Shown: piece by piece, positions 1 through 10,947 of the stretch
Numbering within the stretch: position 1 is the stretch's first letter
Layout of the letters: each line of letters starts with the position of its first letter
Source of the DNA: Oscillospiraceae bacterium
GTDB lineage: Bacteria > Bacillota_A > Clostridia > Oscillospirales > Oscillospiraceae
NCBI GenBank assembly: GCA_017537045.1
Contig: JAFYLN010000209.1
Location: 1-10,947, forward strand
Length of the DNA: 10,947 bases
Direction: 5' to 3'
Program-made: the position numbers and the translations under genes
Notes under the pieces: model-generated
What the model was told of the DNA's origin: nothing
The model's database searches: none
What the model saw: the letters and a program-made list of their open reading frames with translations, nothing else

Positions 1-464
1 CCCTTTGCAAACTTGGGAGGCTCGCCAACAAGAGGATTGCCAGCCAGGTCAACGCCCTTCTCCAGCTGGCAGACAGTGTGCAGCAGAGAAACGGAGTCTA
101 GGTCGAAAACGGGCTTTGCGCCGGGATGGTCGCCCATCTTGGTGTGGTCGCCGGTCAGGCACAGAATGTTATCAATGCCCAGCATAGCAGCGCCCAGCAG
201 CTCGGACTGCAGTGCGATACGGTTGCGGTCGCGGCAGGTCAGCTGCAGAATGGGGGTCAGGCCTGCGTTCTTCAGGGTCACGCAGGTGGGCAGGCTGCCC
301 ATACGCATAACGGAAGACTGGTTATCGGTGACGTTCACAGCAGTGATGCCGCTCAGGTACTCCTTAGCCTCTTCTACCAGATGCTCCAGATGGATGCCTT
401 TGGGAGGGCCAACTTCAGCGGTAACAACAAATTCACCGTTATCAAACAATTCGGTAATTCTCAT
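1..464 (-). CDS. metF: Methylenetetrahydrofolate reductase, N-terminal 154 codons (cut by window edge)
   Basis: MetF reduces 5,10-methylene-tetrahydrofolate to 5-methyl-tetrahydrofolate with FAD, supplying methyl groups for methionine synthesis (or the methyl branch of the Wood-Ljungdahl pathway in acetogens). Visible family signatures are TAEVGPPKG near residues 15-23, the VTDNQ segment near 45-49, LQLTCRDRNR near 74-83 and LCLTGDH near 101-107, all on one face of the TIM barrel in known MetF. The ATG at 464 follows AGGAG (474-478) at good spacing. About half of a normal ~290-residue protein is present; the 3' half lies beyond the left edge. It is the last visible gene of the metV-rnfC, metV, metF operon, separated from metV by 181 bases holding a palindromic repeat. 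The pairing with MetV and an RnfC-like protein argues that it works in a multi-subunit complex rather than as a stand-alone NADH enzyme. Confidence 0.93.
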   Translation of the reverse strand, partial: MRITELFDNGEFVVTAEVGPPKGIHLEHLVEEAKEYLSGITAVNVTDNQSSVMRMGSLPTCVTLKNAGLTPILQLTCRDRNRIALQSELLGAAMLGIDNILCLTGDHTKMGDHPGAKPVFDLDSVSLLHTVCQLEKGVDLAGNPLVGEPPKFAK

Positions 465-497
465 TATGTATTACTCCTATCCAAAAGTAAAATATGA

Positions 498-636
498 TGT
501 CATTCCGAGCCAGTTCGCAAACTGGCGTGGGAATCCCCTATTGCCTGCAACCAGCCCGGAATATCCGGGGGATTGCACCACGGGCATTCCCTTCGGTCAC
601 CACACCAGTGACATCGGTCACTGGTTCGCAATGACA
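498..636. repeat. 139-bp palindromic MITE-like repeat between metV and metF
   Basis: The element starts TGTCATTCCGAGCCAGT (498-514), and the reverse complement of its other end is TGTCATTGCGAACCAGT, so 15 of 17 terminal bases match. Inside are nested hairpins: GCCAGTT/AACTGGC (509-515 with 520-526), CCCGGA/TCCGGG (555-560 with 564-569) and CCAGTGAC/GTCACTGG (605-612 with 617-624). GTGGGAATCCCC is also mirrored, imperfectly, by GGGGATTGCAC. It has no coding capacity. It resembles the TGTCATTGCGA-type palindromic repeats scattered through many gut Clostridia. It fills almost all of the 181-base gap inside an operon, so it would be transcribed and fold into a large RNA hairpin. No target-site duplication is obvious. 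Confidence 0.8.
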
Positions 637-645
637 GCAGGATTT

Positions 646-1254
646 TTATTTCTTGACTTCATCATCGGTGGCGTAGTTACGCACCTGCACAGGACACTTC
701 ACAGCATCCAGACGCCCCACCTGAGCCAGACGGCGCATGATGCGCTCCCAGCCGCATTCCATATTGGGATCAACCTCGCACTTGCCATCCTTGGCACCGC
801 CGCACTGGCCGTTGAGCAGGCTCTTGGAGCAGGCAGTGATGGGGCAGATGCCGCCGGTCAGGTTCAGGTAGCACTCGCCGCACTGCTTGCAGTCGTATTC
901 CAGAGGGGTAACACCCTGAAAACCGGGCAGTGCATAGGTATCGCAGCAGGCGACGACCTTCTTGCCGGGGAATTTGGCAGCAACGGTCTGCACGCCAACA
1001 CCGCAGGAGAATACCAGAATCATATCGGCAGCCTCGATGGCGGCAGCATGTTTTTCCAGACGAACATTCAGATTCTCAGGGTTGCAGATGTAGTCAGTGG
1101 TGATGATACCGGTGGTATCCAGCTCCTTCTGGTAGCTTTCCGCAGCAGTCTCAGGGAAGTAAACTTCCTTGCAGCCGTGGCAGTTGATGACGAAGACCTT
1201 ACCGCTAATCTGGGAGGACAGGACTTCTTTATCTTTCAGTTCAGTAATCAGCAT
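646..1254 (-). CDS. metV: MetV, cysteine-rich partner subunit of methylenetetrahydrofolate reductase
   Basis: A 202-residue protein of the MetV family (the Pfam domain called methylene-tetrahydrofolate reductase C terminal). In characterised acetogens MetV carries metal/FeS centres and docks onto MetF to pass it electrons. The N-terminal part has Cys25 and Cys28, then Cys57, Cys84 and Cys103-104. The C-terminal signature runs from Cys122, Cys125 and Cys128 through TGGICPITACSK (133-144) and NGQCGGAKDGKCE (148-160) to Cys167-Gly-Trp. No signal peptide or membrane segment is visible, so it is cytoplasmic. The ATG at 1254 sits one base after the stop of the upstream fusion gene, with AGGGGG (1265-1270) inside that gene, so the two are probably translationally coupled. 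It is paralogous to the N-terminal module of its upstream neighbour. Confidence 0.9.
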   Translation of the reverse strand: MLITELKDKEVLSSQISGKVFVINCHGCKEVYFPETAAESYQKELDTTGIITTDYICNPENLNVRLEKHAAAIEAADMILVFSCGVGVQTVAAKFPGKKVVACCDTYALPGFQGVTPLEYDCKQCGECYLNLTGGICPITACSKSLLNGQCGGAKDGKCEVDPNMECGWERIMRRLAQVGRLDAVKCPVQVRNYATDDEVKK

Positions 1255-1255
1255 A

Positions 1256-3211
1256 TTACTTCATCCCCCTTACAGCGTTTTTGCCGATCTTGATCAGGTT
1301 GACCAGCGGGATCTTGGAGGAGCAGATGTACTCGCAGCAGCGGCATTCCATGCAGTCCATAATGTTGTAGCTCTTCAGTGCAGCAGCATCGCCCACCAGC
1401 TTTGCAAAGTACAGAGGCTTCAGTTCCATGGGACAGACATCCACGCAGCGGCCGCACTTGATGCATTCCTGAACCTCAGGCTCGTCGTTCTCGATGGCAA
1501 TGATGCCGTTGGAGCCCTTCATAATGGGGGTATCCAGCGTGGTCTGGGGGAAGCCCATCATGGGGCCACCGGCCTTGACCAGAACATCGCCCTCGGCGAT
1601 ACCGCCGCAGGCCTCGACCAGCTCCTTGGCGCTGGTACCGATACGCACGATGAAGTTTGCAGGCTTTGCGATGTACTTACCGGTAACGGTGGTGATACGC
1701 TCAATAAGAGGCATGCCGGTCTTGATGGCATCGGCAATGGCCTTAACGGTGGAAACGTTACTGACGCAGGCACCTACATCGGCGGGCAGCTTGCCGGAGG
1801 GCACGCTGCGGCCCAAGGCGCGCTTGATCAGCATTTTTTCGCCGCCCTGGGGGTACTGGGTAGCAACTTCCAGAACCTCGATATCTTCGATGTCAGCGGT
1901 CTTTTCACGCAGCAGCGCGATGGCATCGGGCTTGTTTTCTTCGATGACAATGATGCCCTTGGGGGCAGCGACCGTCTTCATTTCTGCCTGCAAGCCGAAG
2001 ATGATGTCGTCAGCATACTCCAGCAGCATTCTGTGGTCAGCGGTCAGCAGGGGCTCGCATTCGCAGGCATTGACCAGCACAGCATCGATGGGCTTGCCGG
2101 GATTCAGCTTGACGTAGGTGGGGAAGCCTGCGCCGCCCATGCCGACAATACCGGCATTCTTGACGATCTCAATGATCTCGGCAGGAGTCAGCTCCTCCAG
2201 AGGCTTGTTAGGCTTGACGGATTCATGGATGGTGTCCTTGAAGTCGTTTTCAATCACGATAGCGGGGCAGGTGCCGCGGGAAGCGTGGGGACGATCCTCG
2301 ATGGCAACAACCGTACCACTGATGGAAGAATGGACAGGTGCGGAGATAAAACCGGAGGCTTCCGCGATCTTCTGACCCACATCCACATGCTCACCCACTG
2401 CAACGATGGCAGTTGCAGGTGCACCCAGATGCATGGACAGGGGGAATACTGCGGTCTTGGGTGCAGGAAAACGAACCAGAGCCAGACGCTCGGTGGGTTC
2501 CTTGCCCTCTACGGGATGGACGCCGCCGTACCAGCCTTCCAGACGCTTTTCGCGGATGGCCTTGACGTAGTCATTGATGACCTTGAAATTGACCTTGGAG
2601 TAGTCACGAACCTGAACGGGCTGTGCAGTCAGCTCGCTCAGACGCCCCTGCGCTTCCAGACGCTCCTGAATCTTCTGCCATGCGCAGTCCTTATCGGGGC
2701 TGACTTCGCACTTACCGTCCTTGGCACCGCCGCACTGGCCATTGACCAGGCTCTTGGAGCAGTCGACAATGGGGCAGATACCGCCGGTCATGGTAAGATA
2801 GCACTGAGCGCAGGCATCGCAGGCCTTCTTGGTCAGTGCCATGCCGTGATGACCAGTGTAGTTCAGGGAGTTGCTGGCGGCGATGACGCTCTTGCCGGAG
2901 ACATCAGCCACAGTCTGGATGCCCAGACCGCAGGAAATGACCACCACATGGTCAGTCCCCTCAGGAATCATGGCATTCAGGTTCTTCTCAGCCTTGGTCT
3001 TGTTACAGAGAAAATCAGCCTTGGCAGAGCCGGTAACGGTCTTGCCAAGCTTCGCGGCGAGTTCCAGAAACACGTCGCAATCGGGCTCATTGGTGGTTTC
3101 AAATTCCTTGAAACACTTGTTGCAAGCAATCACGAAGAGGTTGTCCTTACCTTCCAGCAGGGCGGCCAGTTCGTCTTCTGCCTTCAACTTATACTTGGTA
3201 TAGTTTTCCAA
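1256..3211 (-). CDS. MetV-RnfC fusion protein (RnfC2-like electron-input subunit)
   Basis: I place the start at TTG 3211, preceded by a strong AAGGAAGGTGAG (3215-3226); the frame stays open to TTG 3262, which has no good ribosome site. The product is about 651 residues. Residues ~1-205 are MetV-like, with CNKC near 30-33, TGGICPIVDCSK near 142-153 and NGQCGGAKDGKCE near 157-169. The rest is RnfC-like. It has HLGAPA near 261-266, a lipoyl/SLBB-like APVHSSISGTV near 291-301, and the glycine-rich GMGGAGFPT near 357-365 typical of the NADH/FMN domain of RnfC and complex I 51-kDa subunits. Two 4Fe-4S motifs follow, CIKCGRCVDVCP near 583-594 and CMECRCCEYIC near 620-630. The second lacks the usual proline after its last cysteine. 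Inferred role: oxidise NAD(P)H and pass electrons to MetV and MetF. Whether it is NADH-linked or ferredoxin-linked cannot be read from sequence. Confidence 0.85.
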   Translation of the reverse strand: MENYTKYKLKAEDELAALLEGKDNLFVIACNKCFKEFETTNEPDCDVFLELAAKLGKTVTGSAKADFLCNKTKAEKNLNAMIPEGTDHVVVISCGLGIQTVADVSGKSVIAASNSLNYTGHHGMALTKKACDACAQCYLTMTGGICPIVDCSKSLVNGQCGGAKDGKCEVSPDKDCAWQKIQERLEAQGRLSELTAQPVQVRDYSKVNFKVINDYVKAIREKRLEGWYGGVHPVEGKEPTERLALVRFPAPKTAVFPLSMHLGAPATAIVAVGEHVDVGQKIAEASGFISAPVHSSISGTVVAIEDRPHASRGTCPAIVIENDFKDTIHESVKPNKPLEELTPAEIIEIVKNAGIVGMGGAGFPTYVKLNPGKPIDAVLVNACECEPLLTADHRMLLEYADDIIFGLQAEMKTVAAPKGIIVIEENKPDAIALLREKTADIEDIEVLEVATQYPQGGEKMLIKRALGRSVPSGKLPADVGACVSNVSTVKAIADAIKTGMPLIERITTVTGKYIAKPANFIVRIGTSAKELVEACGGIAEGDVLVKAGGPMMGFPQTTLDTPIMKGSNGIIAIENDEPEVQECIKCGRCVDVCPMELKPLYFAKLVGDAAALKSYNIMDCMECRCCEYICSSKIPLVNLIKIGKNAVRGMK

Positions 3212-3300
3212 TTGCTCACCTTCCTTACGAGTTGGTTCGTAATCTAATGATTTGTTCGACAACGTATTGATCTTACCTTATCGATACACAATACATGAAT

Positions 3301-3329
3301 AGTATAGCATAAGTATATGTTTAAATCTA
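3301..3329 (-). promoter_or_regulatory. Predicted promoter of the metV-rnfC / metV / metF operon
   Basis: Reading the minus strand, TATACT (3301-3306) is preceded by TGC, giving an extended -10. A poor -35, TAGATT (3324-3329), lies 17 bases upstream. Transcription would begin near 3294, leaving a leader of about 80 bases before TTG 3211. No known riboswitch was recognised in that leader. Confidence 0.5.
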
Positions 3330-3372
3330 GTCCTTACCGCACGAAAAATAGAAAAGAATGTAAAAACCATTC

Positions 3373-3401
3373 TTGCGCAAACCGGATGGTTGCGCTACAA
3401 T
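3373..3401 (+). promoter_or_regulatory. Predicted promoter of the acetyltransferase-glycosylase pair
   Basis: TTGCGC (3373-3378) and TACAAT (3396-3401) are separated by 17 bases. The expected start near 3408 leaves a leader of only ~16 bases before ATG 3424. It lies back-to-back with the leftward metV-rnfC promoter, so 3294-3408 is a divergent control region. Confidence 0.45.
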
Positions 3402-3423
3402 GTTCAGGTGGGAGGTGTGCAGA

Positions 3424-3864
3424 ATGATCACCATGCAAAAAGCAAAACTTGCCGATGCCGCAGCCGTCGCCTGTCTGGCTCAGCGGCTTTGGCCGCATCA
3501 CCGGCCAGACGAATTACAGGCAGAATTTGTGTCTTTGCTGCAAAACAGCAATGCTGCTGTTTTTCTTGCATTTCAGGCTGCTACACCCATCGGCTTTGCC
3601 CAGTGCCAGCTGCGGCATGACTATGTAGAGGGTACGGAAAGTTCTCCCGTCGGATATCTGGAGGGGATTTTCGTCCTGCCTGAATACCGGAAGACCGGTG
3701 TTGCCCGGATGCTGCTGACCTCCTGCGAGAGCTGGGCAAAGGAACAGGGCTGCACGGAATTTGCCAGTGACTGTGAGCTTGGCAATACCGAAAGCCTGCG
3801 GTTTCACCTGAATGTAGGCTTTACGGAAGCAAACCGCATTATCTGTTTTACGAAAAAGCTTTGA
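3424..3864 (+). CDS. GNAT acetyltransferase of the aminoglycoside 6'-N-acetyltransferase (AAC(6')-I) type
   Basis: A 146-residue, single-domain GNAT protein that would transfer acetyl from acetyl-CoA to an amino group. Its closest resemblance, from memory of the family, is AAC(6')-I: RHDYVEG (64-70), the acetyl-CoA loop region YLEGIFVLPEYRKTGVARML (78-97), FASD (113-116), an Asn at 121 and His128, ending in GFTEANRIICFTKKL. Length fits AAC(6')-I enzymes (~145 residues). The ATG at 3424 follows GGGAGG (3410-3415) at 8 bases; an upstream in-frame TTG at 3373 lies in the promoter and is rejected. The start of the next gene lies 20 bases past the stop, so the two are probably one transcript. Aminoglycoside acetylation is the inferred activity. 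Many chromosomal relatives confer little or no resistance, and another amine substrate is possible. Confidence 0.8.
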   Translation: MITMQKAKLADAAAVACLAQRLWPHHRPDELQAEFVSLLQNSNAAVFLAFQAATPIGFAQCQLRHDYVEGTESSPVGYLEGIFVLPEYRKTGVARMLLTSCESWAKEQGCTEFASDCELGNTESLRFHLNVGFTEANRIICFTKKL

Positions 3865-3884
3865 ATCCGGCAAGGAGGGAGAAC

Positions 3885-4889
3885 ATGGAGCGCGATGAGA
3901 TCATTGCACGGCGGATGGCCGGGCAGCATCTGCTGCAAAAAAGCAGCACGCAGACCGTTGTTAAAGATCTGTGCGGTGTACAGGCGCAGTTTCTGTCCCA
4001 TGCGCTTCATGGTCTGTCCATCCGCTGCACAGAAGTCTGTACCGATAATCTTGTGAAAAGCTGGACGAACCGTGGCACCATGCACCTGTTCTGCGAGGAC
4101 GATCTGCCGCTGTTTCTGCATCAGGGACGAATGCATTTTCTCCGTCCTGTAGATACGCTGGTATCCGATGGGTACATGAATGCCGAAAGGAAAGCCTATT
4201 TTGCAGATGTGATCATAAACGGCATTGTACAGGGCATTGACCAGCGGGAGGAATTGAAGGTTTTATGTGAATCCCATGGCATGACAGAAACGGAAGCAAG
4301 CAGCGCTTTTGATCCCTGGGGCGGTCTGATCCGCGCGCTGTGCGAATCGGGCAGGATCTGCCACAAGGTGCAGGAGAAAAAGGCTTATGTCCTCTGCCCG
4401 CTCTTTGTGCCGATGGAAGAACTGCCCGCCCGGCTGGAGCTGGCGCGGCGGTATTTTACCTACTTCGGCCCTGCCACCATAAAGGATGCCGCCTACTTTT
4501 TCGGCACCACCCAGACGCAGGTGAAGGCTTGGCTGAAAGCGCTTCCCGTGGAAGAAACACAGCTTGGTGGGAAAACATATTTTTACATCGATTCTGCAGC
4601 AAAAATCTCTGCCATGCCGGATTGCCTGTTTCTTGCCGGATTTGACCAGTTTCTGCTGGGGTATGAAAAGACGGAAAGCCTCAGTCTGCCGCAGGAATAC
4701 ATGCGCAGTATTTTTACTCTGGCAGGCATCGTCCGACCAGCAGTGCTGCTCAACGGACAGGTGGCAGGATGGTGGAATCTGAAAAACCGCAATCTGAAAA
4801 TCACCCTCTTCTCCCCTGCCGACCGGAGGATGATTGAAAACGCCGCCATGCAGCAGTGGGAAGATCTGAAAAGTATTTCATTTATGTAA
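3885..4889 (+). CDS. AlkZ/YcaQ-like DNA glycosylase (winged-helix HTH_42 family)
   Basis: A 334-residue protein of the HTH_42 family (formerly DUF1006), whose characterised members AlkZ and YcaQ (AlkX) excise bulky alkylated bases and unhook interstrand crosslinks. Seen here are VQAQ near residues 32-35, matching the QxQ catalytic motif of AlkZ-type (YcaQ has QxD), and TNRGTMHLF near 61-69, matching the conserved RGT-hL segment. A C-terminal LAGFDQFLLGYE follows near 244-255. Start: ATG 3885, six bases after AGGAGG (3873-3878). The frame extends upstream to TTG 3861, but that would overlap the preceding gene's stop with no ribosome site. It is the second gene of a two-gene unit with the acetyltransferase. 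Glycosylase function is inferred from family and motif. Some HTH_42 proteins are uncharacterised, so the natural lesion is unknown. Confidence 0.75.
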   Translation: MERDEIIARRMAGQHLLQKSSTQTVVKDLCGVQAQFLSHALHGLSIRCTEVCTDNLVKSWTNRGTMHLFCEDDLPLFLHQGRMHFLRPVDTLVSDGYMNAERKAYFADVIINGIVQGIDQREELKVLCESHGMTETEASSAFDPWGGLIRALCESGRICHKVQEKKAYVLCPLFVPMEELPARLELARRYFTYFGPATIKDAAYFFGTTQTQVKAWLKALPVEETQLGGKTYFYIDSAAKISAMPDCLFLAGFDQFLLGYEKTESLSLPQEYMRSIFTLAGIVRPAVLLNGQVAGWWNLKNRNLKITLFSPADRRMIENAAMQQWEDLKSISFM

Positions 4890-4894
4890 GTAGT

Positions 4895-4925
4895 ACGCAG
4901 GAGCAACGCTCCTGCGTGTTTGTTT
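4895..4925 (+). terminator. Intrinsic terminator after the glycosylase gene
   Basis: ACGCAGGAGC (4895-4904) pairs perfectly with GCTCCTGCGT (4908-4917) across a 3-base loop, followed by GTTTGTTTTG. It lies 5 bases after the stop codon. Confidence 0.85.
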
Positions 4926-4928
4926 TGT

Positions 4929-5107
4929 AAATTTCAGTTTATCGTACAGTCTTACAATGATCTCGTAGGGGCGGCGACCCGCCGCCCGCACAGCAGAATA
5001 TTTCGCATTCGCATTGGTTTTCGGAGAAATCGTAACATTTTACTGCGCGGGCGACCAATGGTCGCCCCTACGTTCTCCACGGCACACAGCAAAACAAACA
5101 TCAATTT
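4929..5107. repeat. ~179-bp intergenic repeat, copy A
   Basis: Nearly the same sequence recurs at 8716-8893 in the same orientation. The core is bounded by inverted repeats CGTAGGGGCG (4964-4973) and CGCCCCTACG (5063-5072), with an inner perfect hairpin GGGCGACC/GGTCGCCC (5049-5056 with 5060-5067). The flanks outside the core (TTTCAGTTT, CGTACAGTCTTACAAT, ACAAACATCAATTT) are also shared. It is non-coding. It fills the space between two convergent genes and abuts the stop codon of the ABC-F gene, so it forms the 3' untranslated end of that transcript. Confidence 0.85.
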
Positions 5108-6595
5108 TTACAAATCGATGATTTTGGTGGAGACGTTTTGGCAGAACATTTTATCGTGCTCCACAAAGAGGATCGTGGGCTGATATTGCAGCAAGAGTTC
5201 CTCGATCTGCATGCGGGAAATCACATCGATATAGTTCATCGGCTCGTCCCAGATATGCAGATGCACATTCTGGCAGATGGACATGGCAAGGAGCACCTTT
5301 TTCTTCTGTCCGGCGCTTAAGGATGACATATCCTTTTCCATCTGCACCTTCGACACATCCAGCTTGGCCAGCATGGAAAGCAACAGGCTCTCATCGATTC
5401 CCTGTTTTCGCGCCAGTTCTGACAGTTTCCCGTTCAGTCTCGACGCATCCTGCGACACATAAGAAATTTTCAGGCCGTTTCCGATACGGAGCATGCCCGT
5501 ATAGGGAATCTCCCCGCCGCAGATCAGCTTGATGATACTGCTCTTTCCGCAGCCGTTGGCGCCTCGTAAAGCGATGCGGTCACCTTGTTTCATGGTAAAA
5601 TTGACACCATTGCAGACCTGCTTTTCGCCGTAGGCAATGGATACATCCTGCAGCTGCACCAGACGTTTGGTGTGAAAGGGAGTCTGGAAGATTTTCAGCT
5701 CGTCGCTGCGTTCGATGTTTTTCAGCAGCTTGGATTTTTCTTCAATCGCCGCCTGCTGGCGCTGCTCAATGGCCTTGGCACGGGCCATGGTTTTCTTGGC
5801 CTTTGCGCCCTGCAGCGGCCGCCAGCCTTTTACAACGTCCACCTCCATGGGATCTTTTCGGAGTTTCCTACGTTCCGCCATATCGGACCACCGGGCTTTC
5901 TCTCTGGCGGTTTCCTCCAGACGGAAAATTTCCTTTTTCAGCTTTGTATTTTCCGCCTGTTCAAAGGCATCCTGCAGCTGTTTATTTTCCCACCATGTGG
6001 AAAAATCACCCCGCCGGACTTCGATATTGGTCTTGTTGATGGACAGGATGTGGTCCACACAGCCATCCAGAAAGGCGCGGTCATGGGATACCAGAATAAA
6101 TCCCCTTTTGCTGTGCAGATAGCGGCTGACCAGTTCTCTTCCCCGCACATCCAGATGGTTGGTCGGCTCGTCAATCAGCAGGAAATTGTTGTCCTTAGAA
6201 AACAGCACCGCCAGCTGTAGTTTTGTCTGCTCACCGTTGGAGAGGGTTTCATAGGGGCGGTAAAGCAGTTCTTCGTCCAGCTGCAGGCCGTTCATTTCTT
6301 TGGCCAGGCGCCAGTATTCATAGTCCGGATGAATCCGTTCCACAACATCGATTACCAGCGCTTTCCGGTCTTCCACTGTATATGGGAAATAGGAAAACTG
6401 CACCGATGCGGTGATGCTGCCCCGGTATTCATATTTTCCAAGAAGCAGGTTCAAAAAAGTGGTCTTGCCGCGGCCGTTGCGGCCCGTGAAGCCCAGCCGC
6501 CAATTGGTATCAATCTGGAAGCTGACATTTTCAAAAATGTTTTCATAGCTGCCGTCATAGGCAAAGGTGAGTTTTTGTACTTGAATCAGTGACAT
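5108..6595 (-). CDS. Lsa-type ABC-F ribosome-protection ATPase
   Basis: A 495-residue soluble twin ABC ATPase without membrane segments. Domain 1 has Walker A GRNGRGKTT (38-46), signature LSNGE (118-122) and Walker B LLIDEPTNHLD (139-149). Domain 2 has GANGCGKSS (345-353), LSAGQ (426-430) and HIWDEP (447-452). A charged linker at ~205-300 is the interdomain arm that reaches the peptidyl-transferase centre in ABC-F proteins. The opening (FAYD, then DTNWRLGFTGRNGRGKTT) and AFEQAENTKLKKE near 210-222 strongly resemble Lsa proteins, which dislodge lincosamides, streptogramin A and pleuromutilins from the 50S subunit. Start: ATG 6595, five bases after GGAGGG; the frame is open upstream to 6769, but that stretch is the regulatory leader. 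Expression is probably controlled by transcription attenuation. Spectrum and actual resistance are inferred. Confidence 0.85.
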   Translation of the reverse strand: MSLIQVQKLTFAYDGSYENIFENVSFQIDTNWRLGFTGRNGRGKTTFLNLLLGKYEYRGSITASVQFSYFPYTVEDRKALVIDVVERIHPDYEYWRLAKEMNGLQLDEELLYRPYETLSNGEQTKLQLAVLFSKDNNFLLIDEPTNHLDVRGRELVSRYLHSKRGFILVSHDRAFLDGCVDHILSINKTNIEVRRGDFSTWWENKQLQDAFEQAENTKLKKEIFRLEETAREKARWSDMAERRKLRKDPMEVDVVKGWRPLQGAKAKKTMARAKAIEQRQQAAIEEKSKLLKNIERSDELKIFQTPFHTKRLVQLQDVSIAYGEKQVCNGVNFTMKQGDRIALRGANGCGKSSIIKLICGGEIPYTGMLRIGNGLKISYVSQDASRLNGKLSELARKQGIDESLLLSMLAKLDVSKVQMEKDMSSLSAGQKKKVLLAMSICQNVHLHIWDEPMNYIDVISRMQIEELLLQYQPTILFVEHDKMFCQNVSTKIIDL

Positions 6596-6607
6596 AATGC
6601 CCTCCGT

Positions 6608-6646
6608 AAAAATGAAAAATGGCCGCAGGAAAGCATTCCCGCAACC
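6608..6646 (-). terminator. Attenuator terminator in front of the ABC-F gene
   Basis: In the minus-strand RNA, GGUUGCGGGAA (6646-6636) pairs with UUCCUGCGGCC (6631-6621), 11 base pairs with three G-U, over the 4-base loop UGCU. It is followed at once by AUUUUUCAUUUUU (6620-6608) and then the ribosome site and ATG of the ABC-F gene. A terminator immediately before the start codon implies conditional read-through. Confidence 0.85.
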
Positions 6647-6705
6647 ATCACAAGGGCACGCTCCCCCCATTACGGACGAGCGCCAAGTAAAGCACGAGGA
6701 TTCAC

Positions 6706-6717
6706 ACACTTTCCTGC
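6706..6717 (-). promoter_or_regulatory. Antiterminator 5' strand of the ABC-F leader
   Basis: GCAGGAAAGUGU (6717-6706) can pair over 12 bases with AUGCUUUCCUGC (6636-6625): nine Watson-Crick pairs in a row, then two G-U pairs and a U-A. The partner contains the loop and 3' strand of the terminator, so the two structures exclude each other. The same 5' strand can alternatively pair with the end of the upstream ORF (6791-6781). Confidence 0.7.
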
Positions 6718-6780
6718 CAAAGGGCATAGCAAACACAAGCGGCGCACTGCGTCGCTTTTTCATTTGCAATTACCCAACAA

Positions 6781-6801
6781 TCAGCAAGAAACAGTGCGCA
6801 T
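6781..6801 (-). CDS. Predicted 6-residue leader peptide (MRTVSC) of the ABC-F gene
   Basis: ATG at 6801 reads MRTVSC and stops with TGA (6783-6781). GGAG (6813-6810) lies 8 bases upstream, with GAGAGG also abutting the ATG, and the promoter start is ~25 bases upstream. Its last codons (6791-6781, UUUCUUGCUGA) are complementary to 6720-6710 (UUGGCAGGAAA) over 11 pairs including three G-U, which would sequester the antiterminator strand. A ribosome held on this ORF by an antibiotic would free that strand. Such leader ORFs are known for several antibiotic-induced ABC-F and methyltransferase genes. That this one is translated is inference. Confidence 0.6.
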   Translation of the reverse strand: MRTVSC

Positions 6802-6832
6802 CCTCTCAACTCCAATCTGTATCATTTCTTAA

Positions 6833-6861
6833 ATTATAGCAGATACCGGGGCGTTTTGCAA
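6833..6861 (-). promoter_or_regulatory. Strong predicted promoter of the ABC-F leader
   Basis: TTGCAA (6861-6856), 17-base spacer, then TATAAT (6838-6833) preceded by TGC, a consensus extended -10. Start expected near 6826. It lies only 22 bases beyond the stop codon of the deformylase gene on the same strand. Confidence 0.75.
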
Positions 6862-6883
6862 GCATCCGCTTCCGGTTTGCTTT

Positions 6884-7297
6884 TCAAATCAGGATGCCGT
6901 TGCAGTGGTCAATTTCGTGCTGGATGATCTGCGCCGCCCAGCCCTCAAAGGTTTTCAGGCGGGTTTGAAACTGTTCCGTCTGGTACTGCACCTTGATCTT
7001 CTGATAGCGTTTTGTTTTTCTCGGGCCGCCCAGCAATGACAGACAGCCTTCTTCAGTTTCATATTCTCCCGATGCTTTGATGATTTCCGGATTGAACATG
7101 AGCATTGGCGTGCCCCCGTTGTCAACCACAATGATCCGCTTAAACGCCCCGATCATATTCGCCGCCATGCCCACGCAGGTCTCCCGGTGGGCAAGCAGGG
7201 TGTCCAGCAGATCCTGCGCAAGGGGCAGATCTTCTTTCGTGGCCGGGGCGGATTTTCGCGCCAGCAGTATGGGATCATGAATCAACTCTCTTACCAT
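6884..7297 (-). CDS. def: Peptide deformylase, short clostridial type
   Basis: A 137-residue metalloenzyme that removes the formyl group from N-terminal formyl-methionine of nascent proteins. All three motifs are visible: CVGMAANMIG (41-50), where Asn47 replaces the usual Gln; EEGCLSL (82-88) with metal ligand Cys85; and QHEIDHCNG (126-134) with ligands His127 and His131 and catalytic Glu128. The protein ends three residues after the last motif, so the C-terminal extension of E. coli-type enzymes is absent. This short, Asn-containing form is, from memory, common in gut Clostridia and probably active. The ATG at 7297 follows GAGGA; an upstream in-frame TTG at 7318 would overlap the HAD gene and is rejected. 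The gap to the HAD stop is 8 bases, with the ribosome site overlapping that stop, so translation is probably coupled. It is not next to fmt, so it may be a second deformylase. Confidence 0.87.
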   Translation of the reverse strand: MVRELIHDPILLARKSAPATKEDLPLAQDLLDTLLAHRETCVGMAANMIGAFKRIIVVDNGGTPMLMFNPEIIKASGEYETEEGCLSLLGGPRKTKRYQKIKVQYQTEQFQTRLKTFEGWAAQIIQHEIDHCNGILI

Positions 7298-7305
7298 AAA
7301 AGTCC

Positions 7306-8064
7306 TCACATTTCGCAAAGAATTCTTGACAGCTGCTGCCAGTCGTAACCTTCAAATTCATAGTGGCCATCGGATGTATTTCCCGGGAAAAGAGCCGGGT
7401 CGGCCTCTGTCTGGTCGGGCGGAGTCAGGTTGGTGTGCATATAGAGTGTGTCCAAACCTGCGGCTTTCGCACCGGCAATGTCTGTTTCCCGGTCGTTCCC
7501 GATCATCAGACAGGTTTTGACGTTCAGTTTCTGCTCTGTCAGCAGCGCATTGTAGAACCGTGCATCGGGCTTGCGGCAGCCGTAGTCAGAAGAGATATAG
7601 ATGCCATCCAATTGTTCTCCCAGTCCCAGATGGCGCAGCTCGTAGGCGGTGAAAATACGCTGGGCATTGCTCAGCAGCCACAGCCGGTAACCCTTTTCAC
7701 GAAGCAGTGCCAGCGCTTCCAGCACATGGGGGTAAAGCTTTACATACTCGATAGAGGAAATGCGGAACAACTGCGCCGCGTTGATACCCAAAGTATCTGC
7801 ATTTTCCGTTACGCCATTGGCGCGGAAGAGTTCTTCCATCACCTGCTCGAAGGGAATGTCGGGGAAGCATTCATAGCTCTGTCCCGCCTGAGTCTCCCGG
7901 CGGCTCATAGCTGCGCGGAAGGCAGTTTTCAGTTCTTCTGCTGTGTAATGGGCACCGTAAAAGCCAAAATACAGCGCCGTTTTCTCCCAGACAAGGGCAT
8001 CCTCTTCCGTGTGGATGTCTACCAACGTGCCGTATAAATCAAAAATCAGATCCGTGTATTTCAT
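7306..8064 (-). CDS. HAD-superfamily hydrolase (subfamily IA phosphatase)
   Basis: A 252-residue cytoplasmic HAD protein. Motif I is FDLYGTLVD with nucleophile Asp9; the second acidic residue of DxD is Tyr11, as in many DxYGT members. Helical cap region lies at about 16-105. Motif II is LLSNAQ (Ser132), motif III CRKPD (Lys165) and motif IV IGNDRETDIAGAKAAG (Asp191, Asp195). Members dephosphorylate small phosphorylated metabolites or, with the DxYGT variant, may be dehalogenase-like; the substrate cannot be named. A weak GGAAG precedes ATG 8064. It lies 14 bases after the TIGR04076 gene and 8 bases before the deformylase gene, in a tight three-gene operon. Confidence 0.85.
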   Translation of the reverse strand: MKYTDLIFDLYGTLVDIHTEEDALVWEKTALYFGFYGAHYTAEELKTAFRAAMSRRETQAGQSYECFPDIPFEQVMEELFRANGVTENADTLGINAAQLFRISSIEYVKLYPHVLEALALLREKGYRLWLLSNAQRIFTAYELRHLGLGEQLDGIYISSDYGCRKPDARFYNALLTEQKLNVKTCLMIGNDRETDIAGAKAAGLDTLYMHTNLTPPDQTEADPALFPGNTSDGHYEFEGYDWQQLSRILCEM

Positions 8065-8078
8065 ATTTATCTTCCAAA

Positions 8079-8327
8079 TCAGTCAACAGCTTCGCCGTGA
8101 ATACAAACCCTGCCGCCGTCGGGACAGCGGGCATCAAAAGACTTCGCGCGGGTTTGTCCGTAATCCAGATCAGCTCCGTTTTGCAGAGCATAGACGAACG
8201 GGTATATACAATTCCAGAATTCATGACAAATGGGCGGGCACAGATCTTCGACGATGAAGGTGTCCCCCGCTTTCAAATATCCGCCGCGGCAGGTACTTTT
8301 CGTAACGGTCAATCTTACTTTACTCAT
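8079..8327 (-). CDS. TIGR04076-family small cysteine-rich protein
   Basis: An 82-residue protein of unknown function matching the TIGR04076 family as I recognise it: a short beta-strand start (MSKVRLTVTKSTC), GDTFIVEDLCPPICHEFW (21-38), YPFVYALQNGA (42-52) and FDARCPDGGRV (64-74). Cysteines at 13, 30, 34, 40, 68 and 75 suggest metal binding or a redox role, but none has been shown. There is no signal peptide. The ATG at 8327 follows AAGGAAGG at 9 bases. It is the first intact gene of the operon with the HAD hydrolase and deformylase. These proteins often sit beside redox or flavin enzymes in anaerobes; here that context is missing. Confidence 0.8.
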   Translation of the reverse strand: MSKVRLTVTKSTCRGGYLKAGDTFIVEDLCPPICHEFWNCIYPFVYALQNGADLDYGQTRAKSFDARCPDGGRVCIHGEAVD

Positions 8328-8367
8328 GCATTCAGCCTTCCTTCTGTTTTCATTTTCTCTGCGCTAC

Positions 8368-8483
8368 TTACGGCAGTTCGATCCAGAATTCCAGATCAAA
8401 ATGGGGATTTGGAAAGCCCGGAGCGCCATAGGGATAGGTTTCATGGCAGCACCGTACTTCTCCCCATTCCTGCTTTTGCGCAG
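8368..8483 (-). pseudogene. Possible decayed small ORF (~38 codons)
   Basis: After AAAAGGAGG (8498-8490) the minus strand carries a protein-like stretch ending HETYPYGAPGFPNPHFDL, then EFWIELP and TAA (8370-8368). That frame has no ATG, GTG or TTG start. The codon ideally spaced from the ribosome site is CTG (8483), which lies one frame off. Adding one A to the AAAA run just downstream would join CTG to the protein-like frame. This suggests a lost start codon and a one-base deletion, but a chance open frame is possible. No family is recognised. Confidence 0.25.
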
Positions 8484-8499
8484 GTTTTTCCTCCTTTTA

Positions 8500-8535
8500 A
8501 ACGCAAAACAGCCCTGTGCACCGGCGCAGGGCTGT
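8500..8535 (-). terminator. Terminator-like hairpin in the leader of the TIGR04076 operon
   Basis: ACAGCCCUG (8535-8527) pairs perfectly with CAGGGCUGU (8516-8508), 9 pairs, followed by UUUGCGUUU. It lies ~115 bases downstream of a strong promoter on the same strand. CUGUAA/UUACAG (8546-8541 with 8537-8532) would compete with its base. Confidence 0.65.
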
Positions 8536-8622
8536 AAAGTTTACAGAAATCCAGACAGAGTTACGCCACAGACAGACCATTATATCCGTTCATCATCTGA
8601 ACGCAACCTCTTTCCTGAATCT
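8536..8622 (-). ncRNA. Unidentified structured leader or small RNA upstream of the TIGR04076 operon
   Basis: The stretch between the predicted start (~8622) and the terminator hairpin holds no known gene. CGUUCA/UGAACG (8603-8598 with 8592-8587) forms a hairpin. AGAGGUUGCG (8611-8602) can pair with GCGUAACUCU (8566-8557) with one bulged G; the two partly conflict. An alternative is a leader peptide MMNGYNGLSVA from ATG 8596 after AGAGG (8611-8607). I recognise no riboswitch class. Confidence 0.35.
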
Positions 8623-8628
8623 GCCCTC

Positions 8629-8657
8629 ATTATATCCTGTTCTTTCCCATATTTCAA
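8629..8657 (-). promoter_or_regulatory. Near-consensus promoter of the TIGR04076-HAD-deformylase operon
   Basis: TTGAAA (8657-8652), 17-base spacer and a perfect TATAAT (8634-8629) on the minus strand. Start expected near 8622. The long distance to the first intact gene (ATG 8327) leaves room for the terminator-bearing leader. Confidence 0.75.
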
Positions 8658-8715
8658 GTTTAAATTTCAAAATTACCGCATATTTGTAAGCTGAACAACA
8701 CGGTGCGTTTTATGC

Positions 8716-8893
8716 AAATTTCAGTTTGTCGTACAGTCTTACAATAATCTCGTAGGGGCGGCTATCAGCCGCCCGGCGACACAGCATTACGTATTCGCAT
8801 TGGTTTTCGGCGAAATCGTAACATTTTACTGCGCGGGCGACCAATGGTCGCCCCTACGTTATCCACCCTACAGGGTGCGACAAACATCAATTT
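8716..8893. repeat. ~178-bp intergenic repeat, copy B
   Basis: Second copy of the repeat at 4929-5107, same orientation. Bounding inverted repeats are CGTAGGGGCG (8751-8760) and CGCCCCTACG (8849-8858). From GAAATCGTAACATTTTACTG (8812-8831) on to CCCCTACGTT (8860), about 49 bases are identical to copy A. The left arm differs: a GGGCGGC-TATCA-GCCGCCC hairpin replaces GGGCGGC-GACCC-GCCGCCC. It is non-coding and has no transposase nearby. Confidence 0.85.
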
Positions 8894-8916
8894 ACATCTC
8901 CACATAAAAAGGAACT

Positions 8917-8938
8917 CCCCGGCCTAGCCGGGGGTTTT
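8917..8938. terminator. GC-rich hairpin, possible bidirectional terminator
   Basis: CCCCGGC (8917-8923) pairs with GCCGGGG (8927-8933) over loop CTA. On the plus strand it is followed by GTTTTC, on the minus strand by AGTTCCTTTTT. It may back up the phosphoesterase terminator or stop transcripts coming from the repeat side. Confidence 0.5.
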
Positions 8939-8945
8939 CGGTATA

Positions 8946-8974
8946 CAAAAAAGCCACGCCCTATAAGCGTGGCT
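8946..8974 (-). terminator. Intrinsic terminator of the metallophosphoesterase gene
   Basis: On the minus strand AGCCACGC (8974-8967) pairs with GCGTGGCT (8959-8952) over a 7-base loop, followed by a T run covering 8952-8947. It lies 14 bases after the stop codon. Confidence 0.88.
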
Positions 8975-8988
8975 CTTGATATTCCATG

Positions 8989-9831
8989 TCAATGCATCAG
9001 TTCGATCAGAACCAGTTCCGGACGGTTGTTGATCCGAAAGGGAAAAATACTGTTACCAATACCACGGCTTACAACCATATTCGTTGCATTCTCTGTGTAT
9101 ACACCGGCATCGAACACCGGGAAGAATCCCTGCCCGGGTGCATAGATGCCACCAACAACCGGCAATCTGAATTGACCGCCATGGGCATGGCCGGCCAGAA
9201 CGAGATCAACTCCATGTTGCACATAAACCGCAAACAGCTCTGGCCTGTGGGAAAGCAGCACTGTGTAATGTTCCTGATTGACCAGTGGCTCCAGATTTCT
9301 CTGTATTCTGGCAGCGGCATCACCAAGGAGCTGATCTGTCTGGAAGGCCGGGTCATCCACACCAGCCAATGCAATGGATTCGCCATTGCATTCTATTTCG
9401 ATGCACATATTCTCCAGTACAGTCACGCCCAGTGCTTCCAATCCGGCTTTCAGCTCTTCATATTCAGAGATCCGGGATTCATGATTGCCCGTCACATAAT
9501 AGCACGGCGCAATCTGTACCGCGTCATGCGCAAACTGTAGGGCAATTTCGATATCCGTATTGCGGGAATCAACAAGATCCCCAGTTATGGCGATCATATT
9601 TGGCTCCGCTTTTTTCAGCATTGCAAGAAGGGTTTCGTTTTGATTGCCAAGCTGCGCATTGTGAAGGTCTGAAACCTGTGCGATGCGGTAGCCTTCAAAC
9701 GCTTCAGGCATGCGTTCACTTTTGATGGTGTATGCAGTCAATTCCAGTGCCGTGTTATTCTGGATGATCCATGCCGTCAGGCAAAGGAAAACTACCAGAA
9801 GCACGGCTGCTGCAAGCGCTTTTTTCTTCAT
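8989..9831 (-). CDS. Membrane-anchored calcineurin-like metallophosphoesterase (YkuE type)
   Basis: A 280-residue protein. Residues 1-4 are lysine-rich and ~5-23 form a hydrophobic helix (AAAVLLVVFLCLTAW), a signal anchor that places the catalytic domain outside the membrane. The two-metal phosphoesterase motifs are complete: VSDLHN (Asp55, His57), ITGDLVDS (Asp85), GNHE (Asn116, His117), LSHRPE (His195) and GHAHGGQ (His215, His217). Relatives such as YkuE act on cell-surface or lipid-linked phosphates, but the substrate is unknown here. The ATG at 9831 follows AGAAGGTGA. The gene lies on the same strand 83 bases after lysS, beyond a terminator. I see no clear promoter in between, so it may depend on partial read-through. 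Its own terminator is at 8946-8974. Confidence 0.87.
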   Translation of the reverse strand: MKKKALAAAVLLVVFLCLTAWIIQNNTALELTAYTIKSERMPEAFEGYRIAQVSDLHNAQLGNQNETLLAMLKKAEPNMIAITGDLVDSRNTDIEIALQFAHDAVQIAPCYYVTGNHESRISEYEELKAGLEALGVTVLENMCIEIECNGESIALAGVDDPAFQTDQLLGDAAARIQRNLEPLVNQEHYTVLLSHRPELFAVYVQHGVDLVLAGHAHGGQFRLPVVGGIYAPGQGFFPVFDAGVYTENATNMVVSRGIGNSIFPFRINNRPELVLIELMH

Positions 9832-9875
9832 CCATCATCACCTTCTTTGCAAAACTTCTATCAAAAGACAGAACA

Positions 9876-9903
9876 ACCCAAAGTACCGGAAAATACTTTG
9901 GGT
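9876..9903 (-). terminator. Intrinsic terminator of lysS
   Basis: ACCCAAAGTA (9903-9894 on the minus strand) pairs perfectly with TACTTTGGGT (9885-9876) over an 8-base loop, followed by TGTTCTGTCTTTTG. It starts 11 bases after the lysS stop. The tail is only moderately T-rich, so some read-through to the phosphoesterase is plausible. Confidence 0.75.
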
Positions 9904-9914
9904 CGTTTTGTCTA

Positions 9915-10947
<1,033 letters not shown>

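Follow-up and report, generated by a model that had tools for sequence, protein, structure and literature searches.

Control of ABC-F genes by drug-held ribosomes on short upstream open reading frames (uORFs) is established for VmlR (PMC9226507), CplR (PMC10201436) and are5sc and tiaA (PMC12421871), and stalling at the start codon of ABC-F uORFs by the drugs concerned has been described for VmlR (PMC9226507) and for are5sc and tiaA (PMC12421871); statements on published systems refer throughout to excerpts of the cited papers. We describe here a leader on the minus strand of contig JAFYLN010000209.1 (Oscillospiraceae bacterium, assembly GCA_017537045.1), of which the window analyzed covers 10,947 nucleotides (nt; positions 1-10,947). 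This leader, singled out earlier from the letters alone (hereafter, the original prediction), is very probably a ribosome-controlled transcription attenuator preceding an Lsa-like ABC-F gene.

The leader resembles that of vmlR in Bacillus subtilis (Takada et al. 2022, PMC9226507), which has a uORF within an anti-antiterminator hairpin, a pause-type hairpin and an intrinsic terminator, an antiterminator released by a ribosome on the uORF start, and an ABC-F gene downstream; pausing in vmlR depends on NusG/NusA. However, the uORF is of the type M..[ST]C here and MIN in vmlR, the ABC-F subgroups differ, and the pairing of the antiterminator (helix II below) to the loop and 3' arm of the terminator is seen here by covariation. 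The leaders of cplR (Clostridioides difficile), LsaA and VmlR2 (Obana et al. 2023, PMC10201436) also combine a short uORF, a drug-stalled ribosome and attenuation before an ABC-F gene, and the window ABC-F protein has its closest relative of known structure in LsaA, but their uORFs are MR[I/M], MAGN and MK[L/Q], respectively, and the terminator stem of CplR holds the ribosome site of the gene. In are5sc and tiaA of Streptomyces (PMC12421871), toeprints show start-codon stalling with lincosamides, streptogramin A and pleuromutilin of the kind considered here, although these genes belong to another phylum and have the uORFs MLV and MVGDDDISG. Ribosome-mediated attenuation of a ribosome-protection gene is likewise shared with hflXr/rli80 of Listeria (PMC6310831) and msrD (PMC10314930), where, in contrast, macrolides cause arrest on a specific peptide motif. 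The window uORF, MRTVSC, fits none of the consensus strings MIN, MR[I/M], MK[L/Q] and MAGN given for the VmlR, CplR, VmlR2 and LsaA families (PMC10201436). A comparison of the window with Rfam 15 yielded two matches (E values of 0.34 and 0.96), far below the gathering score and both outside the leader, and 13 relatives matched no Rfam family in the leader, their sole match being a tRNA. The kind of switch is known from VmlR and CplR; the uORF consensus M..[ST]C is not among the published strings compared and the leader is not in Rfam.

The features of the locus are listed below in window coordinates. The leader and the ABC-F gene are on the minus strand, with a peptide deformylase gene on the far (upstream) side; strands a and b form helix I, b and d form helix II, and c and d form helix III.

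6833..6861, minus strand: promoter TTGCAA-17-TATAAT with an extended -10 (TG), from the promoter scan
6802..6813, minus strand: uORF ribosome site GGAG(TT)GAGAGG, from the letters (a GGAG-like site is required by the uORF search pattern)
6781..6801, minus strand: uORF MRTVSC* of six codons, ATGCGCACTGTTTCTTGCTGA, the candidate sensor frame, from letters and conservation
6784..6791, minus strand: strand a, TTTCTTGC, 5' side of helix I, from covariation
6722..6775, minus strand: predicted hairpins between a and b (6775-6771/6726-6722; inner 6757-6753/6741-6737), from folding
6706..6717, minus strand: strand b, GCAGGAAAGTGT, partner of a (helix I) or d (helix II), from covariation and folds
6658..6683, minus strand: predicted hairpin in the interval between b and the terminator, from folding
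6618..6649, minus strand: intrinsic terminator, strands c and d (helix III), 14 pairs and a loop of 4, from the terminator scan
6625..6636, minus strand: strand d with the terminator loop, ATGCTTTCCTGC, 3' side of helix II, from covariation and folds
6608..6617, minus strand: U-rich tail TTTCATTTTT, from the terminator scan
6600..6605, minus strand: ABC-F gene ribosome site GGAGGG, from the letters
5108..6595, minus strand: Lsa-like ABC-F gene, 495 amino acids and stop, from profile searches

The promoter lies where the original prediction placed it and was recovered by the promoter scan (one found, 0.5 expected in shuffles); it has 10 of 12 consensus bases and a TG ahead of the second hexamer, and TTG..TATAAT-like elements are found by eye at the equivalent position in 14 close relatives. 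The letters also confirm the six-codon uORF with its ribosome site and the U tract between the terminator and the ABC-F ribosome site (terminator scan: two found, 0.8 expected in shuffles). The leader has a predicted folding energy of -92.6 kcal/mol, against a shuffle mean of -66.9 (z -6.4; 0 of 200 shuffles equal). All the predicted pairs of the three helices are present: helix I (6791-6781/6720-6710) pairs over its full length, G-U pairs included, helix II (6717-6706/6636-6625) has 12 pairs, two of them G-U, and helix III (6646-6636/6631-6621) lies inside the 14-pair terminator. The extent of helix I had to be amended: it exceeds the 11 pairs claimed for it, with extensions at 6805-6800/6696-6701, 6798-6794/6703-6707 and 6819-6809/6684-6693 in the minimum-energy fold. 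The extended helix I takes in the start codon and the ribosome site of the uORF, so that ribosomes could load on the uORF only while strand b has yet to be transcribed or while the helix is unpaired. An additional 8-nt match (GCGCACTG/CAGTGCGC), put forward earlier as a further checkpoint, was discarded as a feature of the leader, because it is specific to the window: it pairs at 8/8 positions there and at no more than 6/8 in any of 14 close relatives.

The gene itself had been called Lsa-type. Its protein is Lsa-like, scoring 680 bits against the NCBIfam Lsa model NF000167, short of the curated cut-off of 750 bits, and 484.8 bits against the general ribosomal-protection ABC-F model NF000355, above the cut-off of 380. 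Among proteins of known structure, its best relative is Lsa(A) (7nhk, 405.6 bits, whole length), and at least 7981 proteins at E<=1e-100 were found in the protein database, among 7996 scored.

We propose that, in unstressed cells, ribosomes would leave the uORF fast; strand a, at the 3' end of the uORF, would pair with b, the intervening hairpins bringing the two together, and d would pair with c, the resulting terminator ending transcription at 6618-6608. If a drug acting on the peptidyl transferase centre (most likely a lincosamide, pleuromutilin or streptogramin A) were to hold a ribosome on the uORF, probably on the AUG or immediately downstream of it, this ribosome would instead cover strand a. 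The freed b could then pair with d as d exits RNA polymerase, terminator loop first, the terminator would come too late to form and the ABC-F gene would be transcribed. The inducing drugs, the ribosome stall and the transcription read-through are the parts of this scheme that we infer. Uncultured gut and soil Firmicutes have many Lsa-like ABC-F genes; if such genes stay off unless a ribosome is held up, then gene presence would not equate to resistance, and induction would be worth looking for.

The conservation of the uORF was assessed in 141 leaders: that of the window, 50 from loci of a genome-contig collection and 90 from a genome search across one order. This search gave 102 ABC-F places, from which 90 upstream regions were taken (30 automatically and 60 by place), the other 12 being distant or partial or lying at the edge of a contig. 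The set includes L051, a second copy of the L001 locus, and two short upstream regions (L075, 158 nt; L108, 66 nt), and relatives that are remote or uncertain, such as L048 and L050, stay within the denominator. A pattern consisting of a ribosome site (GGAG or similar), M..[ST]C, at most one further codon (K/R) and a stop was found in 86 of the 141 leaders (the window, 32/50 contig loci and 53/90 order-wide loci), against a mean of 1.95 and a maximum of 4 per 141 in 20 dinucleotide-shuffled sets, and 3/141 on the antisense strand. Named carriers include Paenibacillus macerans, P. camelliae, Acetobacterium paludosum, Anaerofustis stercorihominis, Sharpea porci and Candidatus Soleaferrea massiliensis, and this uORF type is scattered over deep splits in a quick tree of 76 ABC-F proteins (28/73 branches open). 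An intrinsic terminator was found in 92 leaders, comprising the 86 with the pattern and six with hand-added uORFs (L052, L057, L097, L126, L130 and L139). In a viral contig collection, 12 stretches matched a pattern, none of them encoding a relative. The leaders of clade L071, L074-L079 have other short uORFs (MIR*, MIG*, MKNR*, MIIQ*) and probably a different strand set, with less clear pairing, and L010 and L016 carry an insert with inverted ends (ggaacctctga..tcagagcttcc), resembling a small mobile element, between the terminator and the ABC-F start.

For the analysis of covariation, these 92 leaders were thinned to 80 with less than 85% identity; strand a was set by its coding position and strands b and d by consensus likeness, pairing not being used in the choice. 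Strands a and b were paired in 616/640 cells (597.9 expected) and strands b and d in 610/640 (583.0 expected), values equalled by 0/5000 reshuffles in both cases. In column 5 of a:b, the combinations are TA (31), TG (26) and CG (23), with no C-A. The flanks provide a better test than the 8-nt cores, because the cores of a and d are alike. The 5' flank of a and the 3' flank of b gave -4.20 kcal/mol (-2.24 reshuffled), and the 3' flank of b and the terminator-loop side of d gave -2.58 kcal/mol (-1.68 reshuffled), again with 0/5000 reshuffles equal. The real values of three controls, all with the same kinship, were equalled far more often: by 914/5000 reshuffles for the flanks of a and d, by 4951/5000 for the flank of b and the next 9 nt, and by 1324/5000 for the flank of b and the 9 nt ahead of the terminator. 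Individual leaders are telling: L135 has CCTCTTGC / GCGAGAGG with CCTCTCGC in the terminator. L073, the uORF of which ends in Phe-Arg, has TTTCCGC / GCGGAAA / TTTCCGT, and L205 has ATTAC/GTAAT where its relatives carry GTTAC/GTAAC. Mutually exclusive anti-antiterminator and antiterminator helices are thus supported by covariation in the leaders compared.

Folds were predicted for the same 80 leaders as energies, not kinetics. With no ribosome and the terminator complete, a:b and c:d are predicted together in 77/80 leaders. When the uORF is masked and 8 nt of d have emerged, b:d is predicted in 71/80, c:d in 4/80 and neither in 5/80. A mask of -15..+16 around the AUG gave b:d in 68/80 with 8 nt of d out and in 25/80 at the end; in these predictions, it is therefore sufficient for a ribosome to occupy the start codon. 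The shorter mask -15..+12 gave b:d in 55/80. With a control 31-nt mask placed in the a-b loop, a:b and c:d stay in 60/80 leaders, and b:d is predicted in 5/80.

Several observations weigh against an attenuator of this kind. Neither the automatic pattern nor the six hand-added uORFs account for 49 of the 141 leaders. Column 5 of b:d (CG 44, TA 28, TG 5) includes three C-A cells, and column 1 of a:b is unpaired in 14/80 leaders, eight of them C-A. The reshuffle statistics ignore kinship, and the tree-based independent pairs for column 5, which are never in opposite directions, number only 5-8 on starred branches, too few for significance. In the folds, masking of the uORF with the whole terminator emerged gave c:d in 42/80 leaders, b:d in 35/80 and neither in 3/80, the window leader itself flipping from b:d to the terminator at this stage, and a mask further along the uORF (-3..+28) gave b:d in 58/80 and c:d in 17/80. 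Finally, helix II is built on the terminator loop and 3' arm rather than on the usual 5' arm, and must therefore win during the emergence of that 3' arm. Since the masked equilibrium fold is the terminator in so many leaders, the model requires that helix II lead kinetically or that RNA polymerase have already passed. Helix II is predicted to lead as d emerges and to fail to hold at equilibrium in about half of the leaders, and the antiterminator would have to act by being first.

The distribution of the leader was examined with a covariance model, R1, seeded with nine close leaders, since a MAFFT alignment of 15 close leaders misplaced strand b in L004-L007. R1 had a single match in each of 42 genomes among 394 of one order (E<=0.001), and 39 of these matches lie 14-144 nt before an ABC-F gene on the same strand, the genes having been located independently; the remaining three are before an ABC-F fragment (L172), before another gene (L171) and inside a reading frame (L173). 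In Paenibacillales, 36 of 296 genomes matched, loci were fetched from 30 of these 36, and 28 of the 30 fetched matches precede an ABC-F gene. In L202, what looks by eye like an intron-type reverse-transcriptase frame separates the attenuator terminator from the gene, the ABC-F frame being located past it in L232, and L194 has the leader but lacks the ABC-F gene. In a class-wide sample of Bacilli, 12/348 genomes matched, six with an ABC-F gene (L176, L191, L214-L217), two with a Cfr-like frame (L218, L220) and four apparently by chance (L219, L221, L222, L223). The phylum-wide sample gave matches in 17/348 genomes, 15 of them preceding an ABC-F gene (counting L238, with only 52 residues of ABC-F, and L141 and L243, assigned from other searches); L239 precedes no ABC-F gene and L248 is apparently due to chance. 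We rejected L173, L219, L221, L222, L223 and L248 as true leaders, as they look like chance matches. L171 and L239 are leader-like, with a uORF of the M..[ST]C type and no recognizable ABC-F gene downstream.

In some Paenibacillales, the same leader also precedes a gene for a Cfr-type rRNA methyltransferase. A Cfr-like frame is found behind the ABC-F gene in L227, L228 and L230, and directly after the leader, with no ABC-F frame between, in L224, L225 and L226, which lack the ABC-F gene. The frames of L224 (638.6 bits) and L227 (636.7 bits) exceed the cut-off of 550 of TIGR04432, the other Cfr-like frames being judged from printed ends.

The original prediction read the leader as a three-state attenuator and proposed a search for covarying helices and uORF conservation in the leaders of related ABC-F genes. 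Both were found, and conservation, covariation, the folds with and without a ribosome and the placement of the leader before ABC-F genes in the genome search all support that reading. The observation on the leader is confirmed as real. The layout, its conservation, the covariation of the helices and a strand a within reach of an AUG-bound ribosome are apparent at the sequence level, and point to a deeply conserved switch that would work like those of VmlR, CplR, are5sc and tiaA.

The nature of the signal may be considered separately. In macrolide leaders, a nascent peptide arrests the ribosome in a drug-dependent manner, and an R-x-x-S-C peptide might act here in the same way, given that the 86 uORFs with the pattern end in Ser/Thr-Cys, often with Arg as the second residue, and that the sequence of the VmlR uORF somewhat affects induction, MRK being weaker (PMC9226507). 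However, the codons used are TCT-TGC (67), TCC-TGC (16), ACC-TGC (2) and TCC-TGT (1): no Ser codon other than TCT or TCC occurs among the 86 uORFs and Cys is TGC in 85/86, which is what pairing with b demands. Furthermore, truncated uORFs (M*, MK*, MR*, MRK*) retain the helix I strand past the stop at a similar distance from the AUG. The uORF stops ahead of strand a in L015 (ATGTAATATTTCTTGC), in L062 (ATGAGATAAGCTTTCTTGC), in L021, L084 and L087 (these three MK*) and in L138 (MRK*); the strand-a 6-mer starts at +11 to +15 from the AUG in these six, and at +13 in 78/80 and +10 in 2/80 leaders of the covariation set. In 15 of the 30 Paenibacillales loci, the AUG is directly followed by TAA or TAG and then by strand a, and strands b and d were recovered by pattern in 28/30. 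A quick tree of 36 proteins, 15 of them AUG-stop (17/33 branches open), implies at least five changes between AUG-stop and longer uORFs. In the AUG-stop leaders, the AUG, which would serve as the start, follows GGAG at a distance of about 12 nt; the spacing in the window is shorter. Other uORFs end differently and still pair (L073, MRNNFR; L130, MYKLFC; L118, MRSFDRR; L121, MRFSLR). It is therefore quite unlikely that the main sensor is a specific arrest peptide, and we rejected this reading on codon use and on the strand a beyond early stops. Because strand a persists where the uORF stops before it, the amino acids of the uORF are probably not what is read. The element kept is probably the RNA strand rather than the peptide, a point that goes beyond the original prediction and amends it. 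Retention of the RNA strand fits a switch that responds to a ribosome held on the start codon, as shown by others for VmlR, and the truncated and AUG-stop uORFs may be regarded as natural experiments on whether the switch senses peptide or position. It is possible, although the balance tips slightly against it, that these leaders form a widespread family of attenuators whose uORF serves as a landing pad rather than a message, with nothing but an AUG 10-15 nt before strand a mattering. In several lineages of Paenibacillales at least, the uORF would then have shrunk to AUG-stop, the sensor would be a ribosome making no peptide bond, and a peptidyl transferase centre drug would be detected as a failure to leave the AUG-stop. 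We found no fitting report of AUG-stop uORFs in ABC-F attenuators, or of a Paenibacillus ABC-F gene with a uORF, in the open-licence literature (supplements excluded), which is weak evidence of absence.

Control might also be exerted mainly on translation, with the ABC-F ribosome site hidden and termination secondary, as reported for CplR, which combines both levels (PMC10201436). In one of the folds predicted for 6790-6600, bases of the upstream leader pair with the ABC-F ribosome site, TGCCC (6726-6722) could pair with GGGCA in that site (6602-6598), possibly as a second layer, and GGAGGGCA is common among close relatives (by eye). Nevertheless, a strong terminator and a U-rich tail precede the ribosome site here, unlike the CplR stem, which holds it, and we consider predominantly translational control unlikely. 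Strand a is almost a copy of strand d, as is strand b of strand c, and some cross-pairing therefore comes free, as would be expected of an ordinary intrinsic terminator accompanied by repeats of one short palindrome, with no switch. However, pairing within leaders beats reshuffles in the cores, flanks and terminator loop, with negative controls, and the uORF is conserved well above its frequency in shuffles, making this explanation highly improbable. A ribosome-controlled transcription attenuator remains the reading that we favor.

Two neighboring genes and a further frame were noted in the window. A peptide deformylase-type gene (6884-7318, minus strand; NF006670, 199.7 bits, cut-off 162) lies directly upstream of the attenuator promoter, and a stop-free frame (6769-6595, minus strand) crosses the leader in frame with the ABC-F gene, which we take to be chance. 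An aminoglycoside 6'-N-acetyltransferase-like gene (3373-3864, plus strand; NF043067, 191.6 bits, cut-off 140) is located 1.2 kb from the end of the ABC-F gene.

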